From Candidatus Coprousia avicola (lineage in GTDB: Bacteria > Actinomycetota > Coriobacteriia > Coriobacteriales > Coriobacteriaceae), in the NCBI GenBank assembly GCA_018715125.1, contig DVMF01000048.1, forward strand, positions 1-49,738: a stretch of DNA of 49,738 nt. Direction: 5' to 3'. Under the pieces are notes generated by a model. It saw only the letters and a list, made by a program, of their open reading frames with translations. It did not search any database and had not been told where the DNA came from. The translations under genes were made by a program, and so were the position numbers. Shown here piece after piece: positions 5,225 through 11,855 of this stretch (within the stretch, counting starts at the first letter, position 1; every line of letters starts with the position of its first letter).

Positions 5225-5788
5225 CTATTGGTTAGCCTTTTTCCACTCAAGACTGGCTTTCATGGCCTTTTTGAGCGCTGCCGCCAGTTTTTGGTCAGAG
5301 ATCGGTGAGACGGCGGCGTCGAGGGCGGCGTCCTCCTCGGCGGAAAGCGGCGCCCGGGCGGGCGGGGCGGCGGCGGGGCGCGCGGCAGCCGGGGCAGCGG
5401 CCTGAGAGCGCGCGGCGCCGTTTGCCTGAGACCCCGAGGAGGGCTGCCGGGACACATGGCTCTTTACATGGCCCGGTTTGGTGGTGCGAAACTTGAAGCC
5501 GGCGAGCGAGACCCCCTCGCGCTCCATGCGGGCCCGAATGATCTCGCGCAGCATCGACATCTCCTGCGTCCACGAGGGCGCGTCGAGATAGACGAGGAGC
5601 TCGTTGGAGTCTGGCAGGTAGCGCAGGCCCGTTACGTGCGCGCCCTCGCGCGTGCCGCCGCAGACGGCGTTCCAGGCGCGATAGACGGTGCGCGACTGCT
5701 CGGCGCGTGCCATCTGCTCGCGGCGCTCCGCGCTCGCGGCACCCAGAATGCGCCGGCGCTCGTCATCTAGATAGGCGTTCAGCTCCAT
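5225..5788 (-). CDS. dciA: DciA-type (DUF721) replicative helicase loader
   Basis: DciA-family proteins help load the replicative helicase DnaB in bacteria that lack DnaC/DnaI. The 187-residue product has a DUF721-like domain at about 30-100 (VYRAWNAVCGG, then ELLVYLDAPSWTQEMSMLR). An Ala/Pro-rich low-complexity stretch follows at about 115-160, and the C-terminus is Lys-rich. The start ATG at 5786-5788 fits the GGAGG site; an in-frame GTG two codons upstream overlaps that site and is less likely. The recF-dciA-gyrB position is the classic actinobacterial place for this family. dnaB is in this same window at 23961. The assignment rests on the domain pattern and position; sequence conservation in the family is low. 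Confidence 0.82.
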   Translation of the reverse strand: MELNAYLDDERRRILGAASAERREQMARAEQSRTVYRAWNAVCGGTREGAHVTGLRYLPDSNELLVYLDAPSWTQEMSMLREIIRARMEREGVSLAGFKFRTTKPGHVKSHVSRQPSSGSQANGAARSQAAAPAAARPAAAPPARAPLSAEEDAALDAAVSPISDQKLAAALKKAMKASLEWKKANQ

Positions 5789-5833
5789 GCGCACCTCCCT
5801 GGCTGCTTGATTTGGGGACGGGGTCGAAACACG

Positions 5834-8145: not shown

Positions 8146-8396
8146 GGCGCGCCCTTTCTTTTATATATATAAGTTCTAACTACCAATGATAGTAATAAGA
8201 CGGTTGATGGTGTGGATTGTGCGCGTTCCCCCTGCGTATGGCCTAAAAGTTATGCGCCGTTGCGCAGTGGATAACGGGGTTGGTTTTCCACTGCGGGCCC
8301 CTGTGTAAAAGTTTTCCCGCATGCTGCTTAGGTTATCCACAGGTTATGTCCCACCTTTCCCGTCGTTTTCCCCACGTACGATCGTGCCCGTTGCCG
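8146..8396. other. dnaA-dnaN intergenic region, probable part of oriC
   Basis: This 251-bp gap holds an exact DnaA box TTATCCACA at 8333-8341 (plus strand) and an 8/9 box TTATCCACT at 8266-8274 (minus strand). A weaker TTTTCCACT lies at 8284-8292. An AT run (tttatatatataag) lies at about 8160-8173, next to dnaN. Together with boxes on the far side of dnaA this suggests a bipartite origin. The dnaN promoter must also lie here, but I cannot place it with confidence. Confidence 0.65.
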
Positions 8397-10175
8397 CTAG
8401 GAGCGCAGCATGATCTTGTTGCGCAGCGCCTGCAGGTCTTCGGCAAACGAGCGGTCCTTCTTAAGACCCTCGACCACCTTCACCGAGTGCAGGATCGTCG
8501 TGTGGTCTCGTCCGCCAAAGGCTGCGCCCACGGCCACGCCCGAGATCTCGCACATGTCGAGGGCGAGGTAGGCCGCCACGTGCCGTGCGCGCACGATGCC
8601 GGCCTGGCGTCGCGGCCCGATGAGGTCGGCGTGGCTCACGTGGTAGAAGTCCTCCACCACCTTCTGCACCGTCTCAACGCTGATGCGCTTGTGCGCCGAG
8701 TCGAAGTATTCGTTGGCGATGCGGTCGATATCCTCGGCGGTCAGGTGCTCCCCCGCCTGCTCGCGCTCAAACGACTCCCCCGCGCACCGCTCGCAGAAGC
8801 TCTCGAGCTCGCGGATGTTGGTGCCGGAGACGCTCGCCATGTGCTTGAGGTCGTCTTCGGTGAGGTGTCCGCCGCCCGTGCGGATGGACGAGAGGAGCGA
8901 CTGGTCGCCCCGCGGCGCCCCGGCGTCGTCGGCGGCCGGAAGCACCGTGTTCTCGTAGTAGTGCCGCAAGATCATGTACTTCATCTCAAATCCGGGCTCC
9001 GAGACAAGGCAGAGCATGCCGGCGTTAAAGCGGCTCGTCAGGCGCTCGTCCATGCCGAGGTTTTTGGGCGCGCGGTCTGAGGCGATGGCGACTTTCTTGT
9101 TGTTGCGGATGAACTCATCCATCAGACTGAAGAAGTTGTCGATGGACGCGGTCTTCCCGATGATGTTCTGGATGTCGTCGATGATGAGGACGTCGGCGTC
9201 ATGGTAGTCGCGCAGGATGGCGCGGTGCTGGTCTTTCTGCAGCGCGACCTCGTTGATGAAGTCGTCGATGTAGGCCTGGCTGTTGGCGTACTTGACGCGC
9301 AGGTGCGGGCAGTTCTCGTTGAGGTAGTTCTTGATGGCGAGCAGCAGGTGCGTCTTGCCGAGACCCGACTTGCCGTAGATGAAGAGCGAACTGTAGCTCT
9401 CGGGGTCCTCTGCCGTGGCGGCAAAGCGGACGGCCGAGTTGTACGCATGCTTGTTCTCGTCGCCGTAGACGAAGTTCTCAAAGGTGAATTTGGAGTTGAT
9501 GGGTACCGCGGGATAGCTCGCCGCCCGCGCGGCAGCGTTCCCCGCGCCAGCGGTCTGCGCGGCGGGCGCGGTTGTTCCCACGGCATGGGCCGGCGCTTGG
9601 CTCATGGAGCTCATGAGGCGTTTGAGGTCGCCCGCGCTGATGGTGTTGACCACCTTGACGCGCGCCTCGCCCTCGTCATCCGCTGGCTCGCTCGAGGCGA
9701 TGCTGATGGCGGGCGCCGATGCAGGCGCTATCGTCGGTGCGGCCGCTACGGGCGCGGGTACGGCGGCATGCGATGCCGCCCCGGCGGCCGTCGGCACGGA
9801 AGGCGCCGCCTGTGCGGGCGCTACGGAAACGGCAGCGGATGCGGTCTCCATTGTCGCGCCCATGGTAGCCGGTGCGGGTGCGGGCTGCGGCACCTGAACG
9901 GTTTCCCGTGAAACGTTCTCAGTCGCCGGCAGCGCCGTGGTCACGGTGAGCGAGACGGGCGCGAACGCGATTTCCTCGAGGTAGCGCTCGATGGTGGCGC
10001 GCTGCTTCGTGAGCGCCGCTGCGGCAAAGCGCGACGGTGCCTCGAGGGTGAGGGTCGTGTCCGTGAGCTCGAGTCCGCGCGACTGCTTGAGCATGTTGAT
10101 GAGGCGCGCGTCGATTCCGTCACGCTCGCAGAACGAGATGGTATCGTCCAGGATGATCTGCGCTTCGTTGTCCAT
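8397..10175 (-). CDS. dnaA: Chromosomal replication initiator DnaA
   Basis: DnaA binds DnaA boxes, melts the origin and recruits DnaB. The 592-residue protein is long for the family because domain II is an Ala/Pro-rich linker at about 90-225. Domain I occupies about 1-80. Domain III begins near KFTFENFVYG with Walker A GKSGLGKT at about 268-275 and Walker B VLIIDDIQN. Domain IV has the DNA-binding signature AFGGRDHTTILHSV. The start ATG (10173-10175) fits the GAGG site; the GTG two codons upstream overlaps it. It is 16 bp downstream of the ATPase gene and probably co-transcribed with it. A near-parS sequence lies inside its 5' part (9901-9914). Confidence 0.97.
   Translation of the reverse strand: MDNEAQIILDDTISFCERDGIDARLINMLKQSRGLELTDTTLTLEAPSRFAAAALTKQRATIERYLEEIAFAPVSLTVTTALPATENVSRETVQVPQPAPAPATMGATMETASAAVSVAPAQAAPSVPTAAGAASHAAVPAPVAAAPTIAPASAPAISIASSEPADDEGEARVKVVNTISAGDLKRLMSSMSQAPAHAVGTTAPAAQTAGAGNAAARAASYPAVPINSKFTFENFVYGDENKHAYNSAVRFAATAEDPESYSSLFIYGKSGLGKTHLLLAIKNYLNENCPHLRVKYANSQAYIDDFINEVALQKDQHRAILRDYHDADVLIIDDIQNIIGKTASIDNFFSLMDEFIRNNKKVAIASDRAPKNLGMDERLTSRFNAGMLCLVSEPGFEMKYMILRHYYENTVLPAADDAGAPRGDQSLLSSIRTGGGHLTEDDLKHMASVSGTNIRELESFCERCAGESFEREQAGEHLTAEDIDRIANEYFDSAHKRISVETVQKVVEDFYHVSHADLIGPRRQAGIVRARHVAAYLALDMCEISGVAVGAAFGGRDHTTILHSVKVVEGLKKDRSFAEDLQALRNKIMLRS
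9901..9914. other. parS-like site inside dnaA
   Basis: GTTTCCCGTGAAAC matches the ParB core GTTTCACGTGAAAC at 13 of 14 bases. It encodes NVSRET of the DnaA linker. True parS sites cluster 5 kb away at 15.2-15.6 kb. ParB binding here is an inference. Confidence 0.5.
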
Positions 10176-10191
10176 GGTCACCTCGCCCTAC

Positions 10192-11502
10192 CTAAGAATG
10201 ACTGCGCGCCCAGCTCGCGCCCAGCTCGGTCAGGTAATACTTCTGGCCCTGCTTGACGGTAAAGCCGCGCTTGCCCAGTGTAGCAAGCTCGCGCGACCAC
10301 GTGGGGCCGGACTGGCCGTAGGCCTCGGTGAGCTCCGAGGGGCCGGCATGACCGTGTTCCAGCAGGTAGGAGAGGGCGAGACGGCCGCGTTCGCTCACGA
10401 TGAGCTCGCCCGCGGGCATCGCCGCACCGTCCCCTTCTAAGGGAGAACGCGCAGGTTGCGGCCCTGGGGCGGGCATTGTGGAAAACTCATGTCCCGTCTG
10501 TGGAAAACTCGCAGACGGTTGTGAATAGCCGGGGACCGGTTGCCATCCGGGTGCAGACGGGTACGTCGGCCAGGCGGGATATCCCCCCGCCGCGGGCGCG
10601 TATGGGTTGGCGTAGGGGTTCTGGTACGGGTACTGATTCGCATAGGGCTGGGGGTATCCCGTTCCGTGGGGAGCGGGATACGGTCCGCCATAAGCGGGGG
10701 GCTGCACGGGCGGCTGCTGCTGGTCGACGGGCGCCCCGGGTGCGCCTTGCCAGCCCTGCGGCGCCCCGGCTCCCTCGCCCCAAGGTTGAGCTGCGGGGTT
10801 CGCCATCTGCTCCTCCCAGGGGCCCGGCTGCGCCGCGCTCGCTGCGCCCTGCGTCCTTTCATCTACCGGACGCACGGCCGCTCCGCGCCCGCCCGCGCGC
10901 TTTATCTCGAGGACGCGCTTGGGATCGGTGCTTACGGTCACGACGGTTCCGCCGCCGAGGTTGTTCTCGATGGAGACGGCCCCTCCTGCCGCCTCGAGGT
11001 ATTGCTGGACCATCGGCAGGCCGGATCCGGTGCCGCGGATATAGCGCTTCATACTGCGATTCGCCGAGGTCACGCCAAACTCGAATGCCCGCTCCTTGTC
11101 GGCTATGCCCGGTCCTTGGTCGGCGAACCGGATGGTGTTGCCGCCGTCCAGAATCGAGATGATGGGTTCGACGAAGTGCGCGTGAATGAAGTTCTCCACT
11201 ATCTCGCGGATAACCATAAGCGAGATAGCGCCCCCCTGCTCTTTCATGGCACGGTAGACCGTGTTGGTCACTTCCTCTAGATAAGAGCGTACGGGGCCGG
11301 GCTCGATCACGATGACGCGCGGCGTTGCGTAGAGGTCGTCGTAGACGGAGATGCGTGTCGCATAGGCCGCCGTCTCCGCTTTGCCGGCGGCCTCAGAGGG
11401 TGCAGCTCCCGGCTGCTCCGGGGCCGGCGTGGCATCCGGGAGGTGCTGATTGTCCGGCGCCGGATCGCCTGAGTCGACAAAGGGATAGAAGTCGTCAGCC
11501 AT
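10192..11502 (-). CDS. GHKL-family ATPase with C-terminal winged helix, origin-linked
   Basis: I do not recognise a named family. The 436-residue protein has a histidine-kinase/anti-sigma type ATP-binding fold at about 55-190: N box REIVENFIHA (99-108), G1 box DQGPGI (128-133) and G2 box GTGSGLPMV (157-165). No phospho-accepting His domain or membrane segment is visible, so it is not a normal sensor kinase. A Pro/Gln/Tyr/Gly-rich linker (about 210-350) leads to a winged-helix-like domain (about 365-436; LALSYLLEHGHAGPSELTEAYG, then VKQGQKYYLTELG). It is the first gene leftward from oriC, 16 bp upstream of dnaA, so it probably shares the dnaA promoter. I infer an ATP-dependent DNA-binding regulator of initiation or of this operon. 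The domains are well supported; the role is not. Confidence 0.85.
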   Translation of the reverse strand: MADDFYPFVDSGDPAPDNQHLPDATPAPEQPGAAPSEAAGKAETAAYATRISVYDDLYATPRVIVIEPGPVRSYLEEVTNTVYRAMKEQGGAISLMVIREIVENFIHAHFVEPIISILDGGNTIRFADQGPGIADKERAFEFGVTSANRSMKRYIRGTGSGLPMVQQYLEAAGGAVSIENNLGGGTVVTVSTDPKRVLEIKRAGGRGAAVRPVDERTQGAASAAQPGPWEEQMANPAAQPWGEGAGAPQGWQGAPGAPVDQQQPPVQPPAYGGPYPAPHGTGYPQPYANQYPYQNPYANPYAPAAGGYPAWPTYPSAPGWQPVPGYSQPSASFPQTGHEFSTMPAPGPQPARSPLEGDGAAMPAGELIVSERGRLALSYLLEHGHAGPSELTEAYGQSGPTWSRELATLGKRGFTVKQGQKYYLTELGASWARSHS

Positions 11503-11743
11503 GGTCTCTCAATCTCCGTTGGTGCGGTGTATAGATAGTAGCTCACCTGAAAGGTTTCAAACCTTTCCACAGGTTTTCAAAACATGTTGAAAACTGAAGA
11601 AAACGAATGAAAAGTTATGCACACACCTTGCACAACCTGTGGAAAACTCCGAAACGCAGATGAAAAGTCGTGAAAAGTTCGAAAGTGCCTTCAGAGCGGC
11701 GTCGAACGCCTGTGATGAGTTGTCGTTAACCTGCGGAGATTTG
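11503..11743. other. Probable oriC segment with DnaA boxes
   Basis: This is the divide between leftward and rightward transcription. DnaA-box matches to TTWTNCACA are TTATGCACA at 11615-11623 (plus) and TTTTCCACA at 11638-11646 (minus). A weaker CTTTCCACA lies at 11563-11571. A purine-rich AT stretch with repeated tgaaaa words (about 11586-11680) could be the unwinding element. The region also holds the promoter of the dnaA operon, for which TTGAAA-17-TATCTA on the minus strand (about 11532-11560) is a weak candidate. Confidence 0.75.
11549..11567. promoter_or_regulatory. 19-bp perfect palindrome in the oriC/dnaA-operon promoter
   Basis: The arms gaaaggttt and aaacctttc flank a single C. The site overlaps a weak DnaA box (11563-11571) and lies about 47 bp upstream of the ATPase gene. 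It looks like an operator for a dimeric DNA-binding protein. The winged-helix domain of the adjacent ATPase is one possible partner; that is inference. Confidence 0.5.
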
Positions 11744-11773
11744 TTGACATTGCCCAGATGTATTCCCTACAAT
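11744..11773 (+). promoter_or_regulatory. Promoter of rpmH
   Basis: A consensus -35 TTGACA (11744-11749) is followed after 18 bp by -10 TACAAT (11768-11773). The rpmH start lies 82 bp downstream. It probably drives the rpmH-rnpA-yidD-yidC operon. Confidence 0.8.
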
Positions 11774-11855
11774 CTGAAAGCTCACGTGCATAAACCGCAT
11801 GTCGTGCATCATCCACTCGTACGCATGCTAGAAACGCAGCAGGAGGATTGTAACC

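Follow-up and report, generated by a model that had tools for sequence, protein, structure and literature searches.

What kind of gene stands between rpmH and dnaA, how faithfully does it stay there, and what might it do? In most bacteria, the slot beside rpmH is occupied by dnaA itself. In the window (the whole stretch of DNA that was analysed, 49,738 nucleotides from Candidatus Coprousia avicola), a gene encoding a GHKL ATPase with a C-terminal winged helix takes the place that dnaA usually holds. A sequence-only reading of the same DNA had described this gene as the first one leftward from the origin side, 16 bp before dnaA, and the positions of the two genes bear this out.

10192..11502, minus strand: gene for a GHKL ATPase, disordered linker and winged helix, 436 aa (ORF with an ATG start; homologues known)
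8397..10181, minus strand: dnaA, following directly in the same orientation (Bac_DnaA, E=1.4e-44; Bac_DnaA_C, E=1.8e-19)

The start of dnaA is either the ATG at 10175 or an in-frame GTG at 10181, which leaves a spacing of 16 bp or 10 bp, respectively. Read leftward from the intergenic region on the rpmH side, the gene order is the GHKL-winged-helix gene, dnaA, dnaN, recF, an ORF of 189 aa and gyrB. On the right side lie the divergent rpmH, rnpA and a membrane insertase gene, with soj/parB-type genes beyond. The 189-aa ORF (5225-5794) has no Pfam match at 1e-5; the slot between recF and gyrB is the usual site of the DciA/DUF721 gene, and the ORF is possibly a diverged DciA.

Domain architecture and nearest relatives

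The protein is made up of two domains and the linker that joins them, encoded as follows.

10885..11373, minus strand: GHKL (Bergerat-fold) ATPase domain, residues 44-206 (Pfam HATPase_c, AlphaFold2 and structure matches)
11179..11205, minus strand: N box, residues 100-108 (E100, E103, N104 and H107; invariant or nearly invariant alignment columns)
11104..11121, minus strand: G1 box DQGPGI, residues 128-133 (D128, G130 and G132 invariant)
11014..11034, minus strand: G2 box GTGSGLP, residues 157-163 (G157, G159 and G161 invariant)
10411..10884, minus strand: disordered linker rich in Pro, Gln, Tyr and Gly, residues 207-364 (pLDDT <60 over most of its length)
10195..10410, minus strand: winged helix of the MarR/IclR type, residues 365-436 (Pfam, AlphaFold2 and MarR structures)

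The HATPase_c model of Pfam exceeds its cut-off at residues 97-193 (E=2.6e-11) and is matched in all 39 of the diverse homologues that were aligned. Throughout this alignment N104, H107, D128, G130, G132, G157, G159 and G161 are invariant and E100 is nearly so, giving the motif forms D128-x-G130-P-G132 for the G1 box and G157-x-G159-x-G161 for the G2 box. The same conservation of the N, G1 and G2 boxes was seen again in a second alignment of 65 homologues. Judged by these residues, the domain keeps an intact ATP site and is predicted to bind ATP. When modelled alone with AlphaFold2, it reaches a pLDDT of 93.4 and a pTM of 0.89. A phospho-accepting HisKA domain was matched by Pfam neither in the window protein nor in the 39 homologues, and the sole conserved histidine of the family is H107 of the N box. 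The GHKL fold with its three visible boxes and the lack of a phospho-accepting domain, both read earlier from the letters, therefore stand.

The AlphaFold2 model of the whole protein, built on the alignment of 39 homologues, is confident in two regions, the domains at about 44-206 and 371-435, and has the disordered linker between them; confidence is low for residues before about 41. The winged helix is modelled with a pLDDT of about 97 and superposes on MarR structures with a Z of 12.8 at 1.8-1.9 Å over 70-72 residues. Its own Pfam match (372-434, E=4.6e-7) is below threshold, and the tails of the homologues match IclR in 25, TrmB in 14 and MarR_2 in 10 of the 39. The fusion of a GHKL ATPase to a C-terminal winged helix is thus real, both domains being supported by Pfam, by the models and by structure matches, and the tail is predicted to fold as had been proposed. 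Two residues in and after the wing, K421 and G428, are invariant, and the net charge of the wing averages about +2 in the 39 homologues. Such a basic wing is only suggestive of sequence-specific DNA binding. Family f3 of this alignment, which is Eggerthellaceae-like, has a different recognition helix.

At the N-terminus, a peptide with an aromatic pair (MADDFYPFV, MKxF[FY] or MK[ND]FL; about 11476-11502 in the window) precedes a disordered stretch in 59 of 104 loci from several classes; it is absent from families f3, f33 and f35 and from most of f36. It is a possible docking peptide.

To which known system is this protein closest? The best structure match of the GHKL domain is DIP2311 of Corynebacterium diphtheriae (PDB 3lmm; Z 14.4 over 153 residues, rmsd about 3), which we take to consist of AlbA_2, HATPase_c_4 and a winged helix; on that architecture, the combination of GHKL and winged helix has a precedent. 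However, the two share only about 17% identity, the AlbA_2 (Schlafen-like) domain finds no match in any of the 39 homologues, and HATPase_c_4 is likewise unmatched among them. SpoIIAB and RsbW are alike in being soluble GHKL proteins without a phospho-His domain and in their E-x-x-x-N-x-x-H-A form of the N box, and SpoIIAB is found both by structure (Z 11.1 over 123 residues) and by sequence-profile search (E=6e-4). In contrast to these proteins, the family described here prefers HATPase_c (HATPase_c_2 is matched in 1 of 39) and adds a domain for DNA binding. Neither a sigma factor nor a STAS protein is encoded next to it, the immediate neighbours being dnaA, dnaN, recF, rpmH and rnpA. The sensor histidine kinases KinB, HK853 and CpxA have a HATPase_c CA domain with the same nucleotide-binding boxes (Z about 10-11 for the CA domains; E=4e-8 for the sporulation kinase KinB in the profile search), whereas the window protein has no HisKA/DHp, sensor or membrane part and carries a winged helix instead. 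By structure comparison, the fold is also common to the BCKDH/PDK protein kinases. Unlike the GHL ATPases (GyrB, MutL, Hsp90 and topo VI B), the protein has no S5-fold transducer, its place being taken by the linker and winged helix. The C-terminal fold itself is that of MarR, IclR and TrmB proteins, but here it lacks the dimerisation helices of MarR and is joined to a GHKL ATPase. SirA, YabA, Soj, Hda, SeqA and DciA resemble it in their position at the dnaA locus or their presumed target; their folds differ from that of the GHKL-winged-helix protein, which matches none of these families in Pfam or NCBIfam.

The protein therefore fails the defining features of histidine kinases, of RsbW/SpoIIAB and of the GHL ATPases. 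What it does have are the features by which its own family is defined, namely both domains and a place adjacent to dnaA. No NCBIfam model comes near its cut-off, and no Pfam model is dedicated to the family. A GHKL/winged-helix gene beside dnaA was not found described in the full-text literature searched, which is weak evidence of novelty as subscription journals lay outside the search. The parts are known; the family is, as far as could be found, undescribed.

Linkage to dnaA and descent

Two outcomes would have spoken against the sequence-only reading, a gene unlinked to dnaA in most relatives or a tail without a winged-helix fold, and neither was observed. The distribution of the gene was followed well beyond the window. 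A strong homologue (E<=1e-20) is present in 169 of 197 Coriobacteriia genomes representing 93 genera. Both genes were found in these 169; the gene was never found without dnaA, 18 genomes showed neither and 10 showed dnaA only, which is what physical linkage and incomplete assemblies would give. In the first 87 loci, the home family of the window included, the gene lies beside dnaA and rpmH wherever the sequence piece extends that far. It also adjoins dnaA in 90 of 91 further Coriobacteriia genomes, nearly all from outside the home family; seven of these 90 adjacencies span the start of a circular record, and the sole exception is a contig break.

A family profile was then searched against 396 genomes across Actinomycetota at a cut-off of E<=1e-15. 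It matched 157 of them, 119 of which lie outside Coriobacteriia and belong to 21 families; more than half of the sampled genomes gave no match at this cut-off. Outside Coriobacteriia the matches are nearly always single (five genomes have two), and both domains are recognisable in the proteins recovered. Where both positions are known, the gene adjoins dnaA in 75 of 77 of these genomes, the two exceptions being contig breaks; 70 do not cross the start of a record, and every one of them has the gene upstream of dnaA on the same strand. Adjacency to dnaA extends over more than 35 families, and the linkage claimed by the sequence-only reading reaches far beyond what it had proposed, to the whole class and 21 further families. 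The gap to dnaA is mostly -10 to +82 bp and often -4 to +20 bp; gaps of the latter size suggest cotranscription and sometimes coupled translation.

The two genes also appear to have travelled together through time. Distances in the DnaA and GHKL trees are correlated, with a Mantel r of 0.62 where permutations reach 0.16 at most, and the two trees have 44 of 89 bipartitions in common. Both results are as expected under joint vertical descent. Rearrangement has not separated the pair. Locus L055 has the gene and dnaA flipped jointly, with dnaN on one side and rpmH on the other. In L095 and L096 the gene has changed orientation and diverges from dnaA, yet it is still adjacent, with DnaA boxes between the two. 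Absence does occur: within Coriobacteriia the gene is missing beside dnaA in L115, L118 and L119 and seems lost in the small-genome family f6 (L121, L122 and L123). In all six loci rnpA is present, as is dnaA where the sequence piece shows it. These losses are likely to be several independent events, and since they occurred in lineages that bear dnaA, the gene is not universally essential for initiation.

Both domains are under purifying selection: by the simple Nei-Gojobori method, dN/dS is 0.02-0.11 in the GHKL domain and 0.07-0.20 in the winged helix, as against 0.2-0.4 in the linker. Synonymous divergence of the winged helix is about half that of the GHKL domain when the window is compared with L003 and L004 (dS 0.40-0.44 versus 0.85-0.93), but not with L006. 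The low value at 10195-10410 may hint at a cis-element within the 3' part of the coding sequence, for example a promoter for dnaA. An origin in mobile elements was rejected, as tblastn against 72,556 plasmids and 50,697 phages gave zero matches. Membership of a defence system was rejected as well, the window protein having no match; one homologue gave two weak defence-system matches confined to the winged helix.

DnaA boxes and other cis elements

The elements examined lie in the intergenic region and in the gene body.

11503..11855, no strand: intergenic region between the gene and the divergent rpmH, with the upstream DnaA-box cluster (box scan)
11549..11567, no strand: 19-bp palindrome GAAAGGTTTCAAACCTTTC, overlapping a DnaA-box-like site (not conserved)
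10499..10507, minus strand: intragenic DnaA box TTTTCCACA, the first of a pair on the coding strand (box scan)
10477..10485, minus strand: intragenic DnaA box TTTTCCACA, the second of the pair, reading Phe-Ser-Thr in frame (box scan)

DnaA boxes are plentiful upstream of the gene. Exact boxes or boxes with one mismatch lie at 11563, 11585, 11615 and 11638, and the enrichment was seen over 104 dereplicated loci, of which 61 have TTTTCCACA upstream where 1.4 would be expected and 37 have TTATCCACA where 0.6 would be. Inverted pairs of boxes (CCACA-NN-TGTGG) recur in families other than the home family. A second cluster of DnaA-box-like sites is found at 8266-8374, in the intergenic region between dnaA and dnaN, so the origin may be bipartite; GC skew gives no sharp origin mark in the window.

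The two boxes in the linker-coding part of the gene are exactly 22 bp apart (10477 and 10499). Of 82 Coriobacteriaceae loci, 22 keep this spacing although linker length varies, when the pair is allowed at most two mismatches. Exact intragenic boxes in Coriobacteriaceae number 22, versus 1.4 under synonymous codon shuffling (maximum 5 in 200 shuffles). A few of the counted boxes coincide with conserved Val-Glu-Asn codons and are partly due to the protein sequence; the shuffled controls take this into account. The pair represents a cis-element contained in the codons for a disordered linker. Other families are without excess (2 boxes versus 1.3 expected).

No binding site for the winged helix emerged. 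The palindrome next to the gene had been put forward as a possible target of the protein; the sequence is real, but among the loci inspected it is kept only in the window and in L002, a relative of 96% identity, and it is not conserved even in relatives of 62-66% identity. We reject it as the operator since its conservation ends at this one close relative. With DnaA boxes masked, a search by group for upstream 8-mers and spaced dyads gave no operator motif common across groups. Only variants of the DnaA box, inverted pairs included, and AT-rich words stood out outside the home family. Within it the highest-ranking 8-mers belong to the beginning of rpmH and to the rpmH promoter region, and a CACGG dyad is present in 8 of 26 loci. 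The same intergenic region holds a strong sigma-70-like promoter directed toward rpmH (TTGACA-18-TACAAT, 11744-11773), and a scan for promoters of this type found nothing beyond it.

Proposed function

Its constant place beside dnaA in numerous deep-branching lineages of Actinomycetota makes the protein a strong candidate for a hitherto undescribed regulator, either of DnaA or of the replication of the chromosome. The reading that we favour, at a probability of roughly 45%, is that of an ancient, vertically inherited family whose gene is the first of a presumed dnaA operon and whose product is an ATP-sensing regulator of that operon or of the origin. The GHKL domain would bind ATP, as do SpoIIAB and the CA domains of histidine kinases, and would serve as an ATP/ADP-dependent switch. 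Through the tethered winged helix, its nucleotide state may govern the binding of DNA in the region from rpmH to dnaA. The protein could in this way tune transcription of its own operon and hence the supply of DnaA, and possibly affect the assembly of DnaA at the origin, in response either to the energy state of the cell or to a partner protein. Feedback from DnaA would run through the upstream boxes and, in Coriobacteriaceae, also through those of the linker.

For this regulator of operon or origin speak the near-universal position beside dnaA, the co-occurrence of the two genes, their short gaps and the survival of the pair through rearrangement. The two domains, established by prediction and homology, add a preserved ATP site and a winged helix with a basic wing, and vertical descent and the upstream DnaA boxes point the same way. 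Against it stand the lack of a shared winged-helix site upstream, the different recognition helix of f3 and the absence of the gene from some genomes that bear dnaA.

Linkage taken alone is also compatible with direct action on the DnaA protein. The GHKL domain may work in the manner of SpoIIAB and RsbW, with ATP-dependent binding or phosphorylation of DnaA, and the winged helix would serve only to dock it at the origin. We consider this main rival somewhat unlikely. The closeness of the SpoIIAB fold and the fold shared with BCKDH/PDK kinases are in its favour, and the lack of a transducer of the GyrB/MutL type makes a kinase or switch likelier than a strand-passage ATPase; moreover, proteins whose genes are neighbours and probably translated together are often physical partners. 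The N-terminal aromatic motif, which could dock such a partner, is however missing from several families.

A transcription factor that responds to ATP and serves an unrelated regulon, left beside dnaA in a frozen ancestral operon with no tie to replication, is an unlikely account. It would explain why the tail has a winged helix of a widespread type, MarR/IclR, why no conserved operator is found upstream of its own gene and why some lineages lost the gene yet kept dnaA. Neutral operon fission would then be expected, whereas adjacency survives both inversion and divergence across the many families sampled; the two genes remain neighbours even where their orientations differ, which makes a frozen operon less likely. 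A role chiefly in cis, in which the gene body carries DnaA boxes and spaces the origin from dnaA, is highly improbable: the 22-bp pair and the excess over shuffled codons are found in part of Coriobacteriaceae and are lacking in other families, and the strong purifying selection on both domains and the invariant ATP residues require a protein function.

The regulator of operon or origin that we favour may have a wider meaning, which we put forward still more tentatively. The family may be an undescribed class of initiation regulators, an ATP-sensing GHKL switch joined to a DNA-binding domain, ancestral to much of Actinomycetota, coupling energy state to the supply or activity of DnaA at the origin and missing from Streptomyces and Mycobacterium-type lineages. 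Replication control in actinobacteria is usually studied in Streptomyces and Mycobacterium, where the new class, if true, would be missing. How the level and timing of DnaA are controlled beyond a few model species is largely open. A gene that has stayed with dnaA in dozens of families, and whose product keeps its ATP site and ends in a DNA-binding domain, is a concrete candidate. If confirmed, it would be a new type of protein in initiation control and would help explain replication control in common gut bacteria such as Collinsella, Eggerthella and their relatives.
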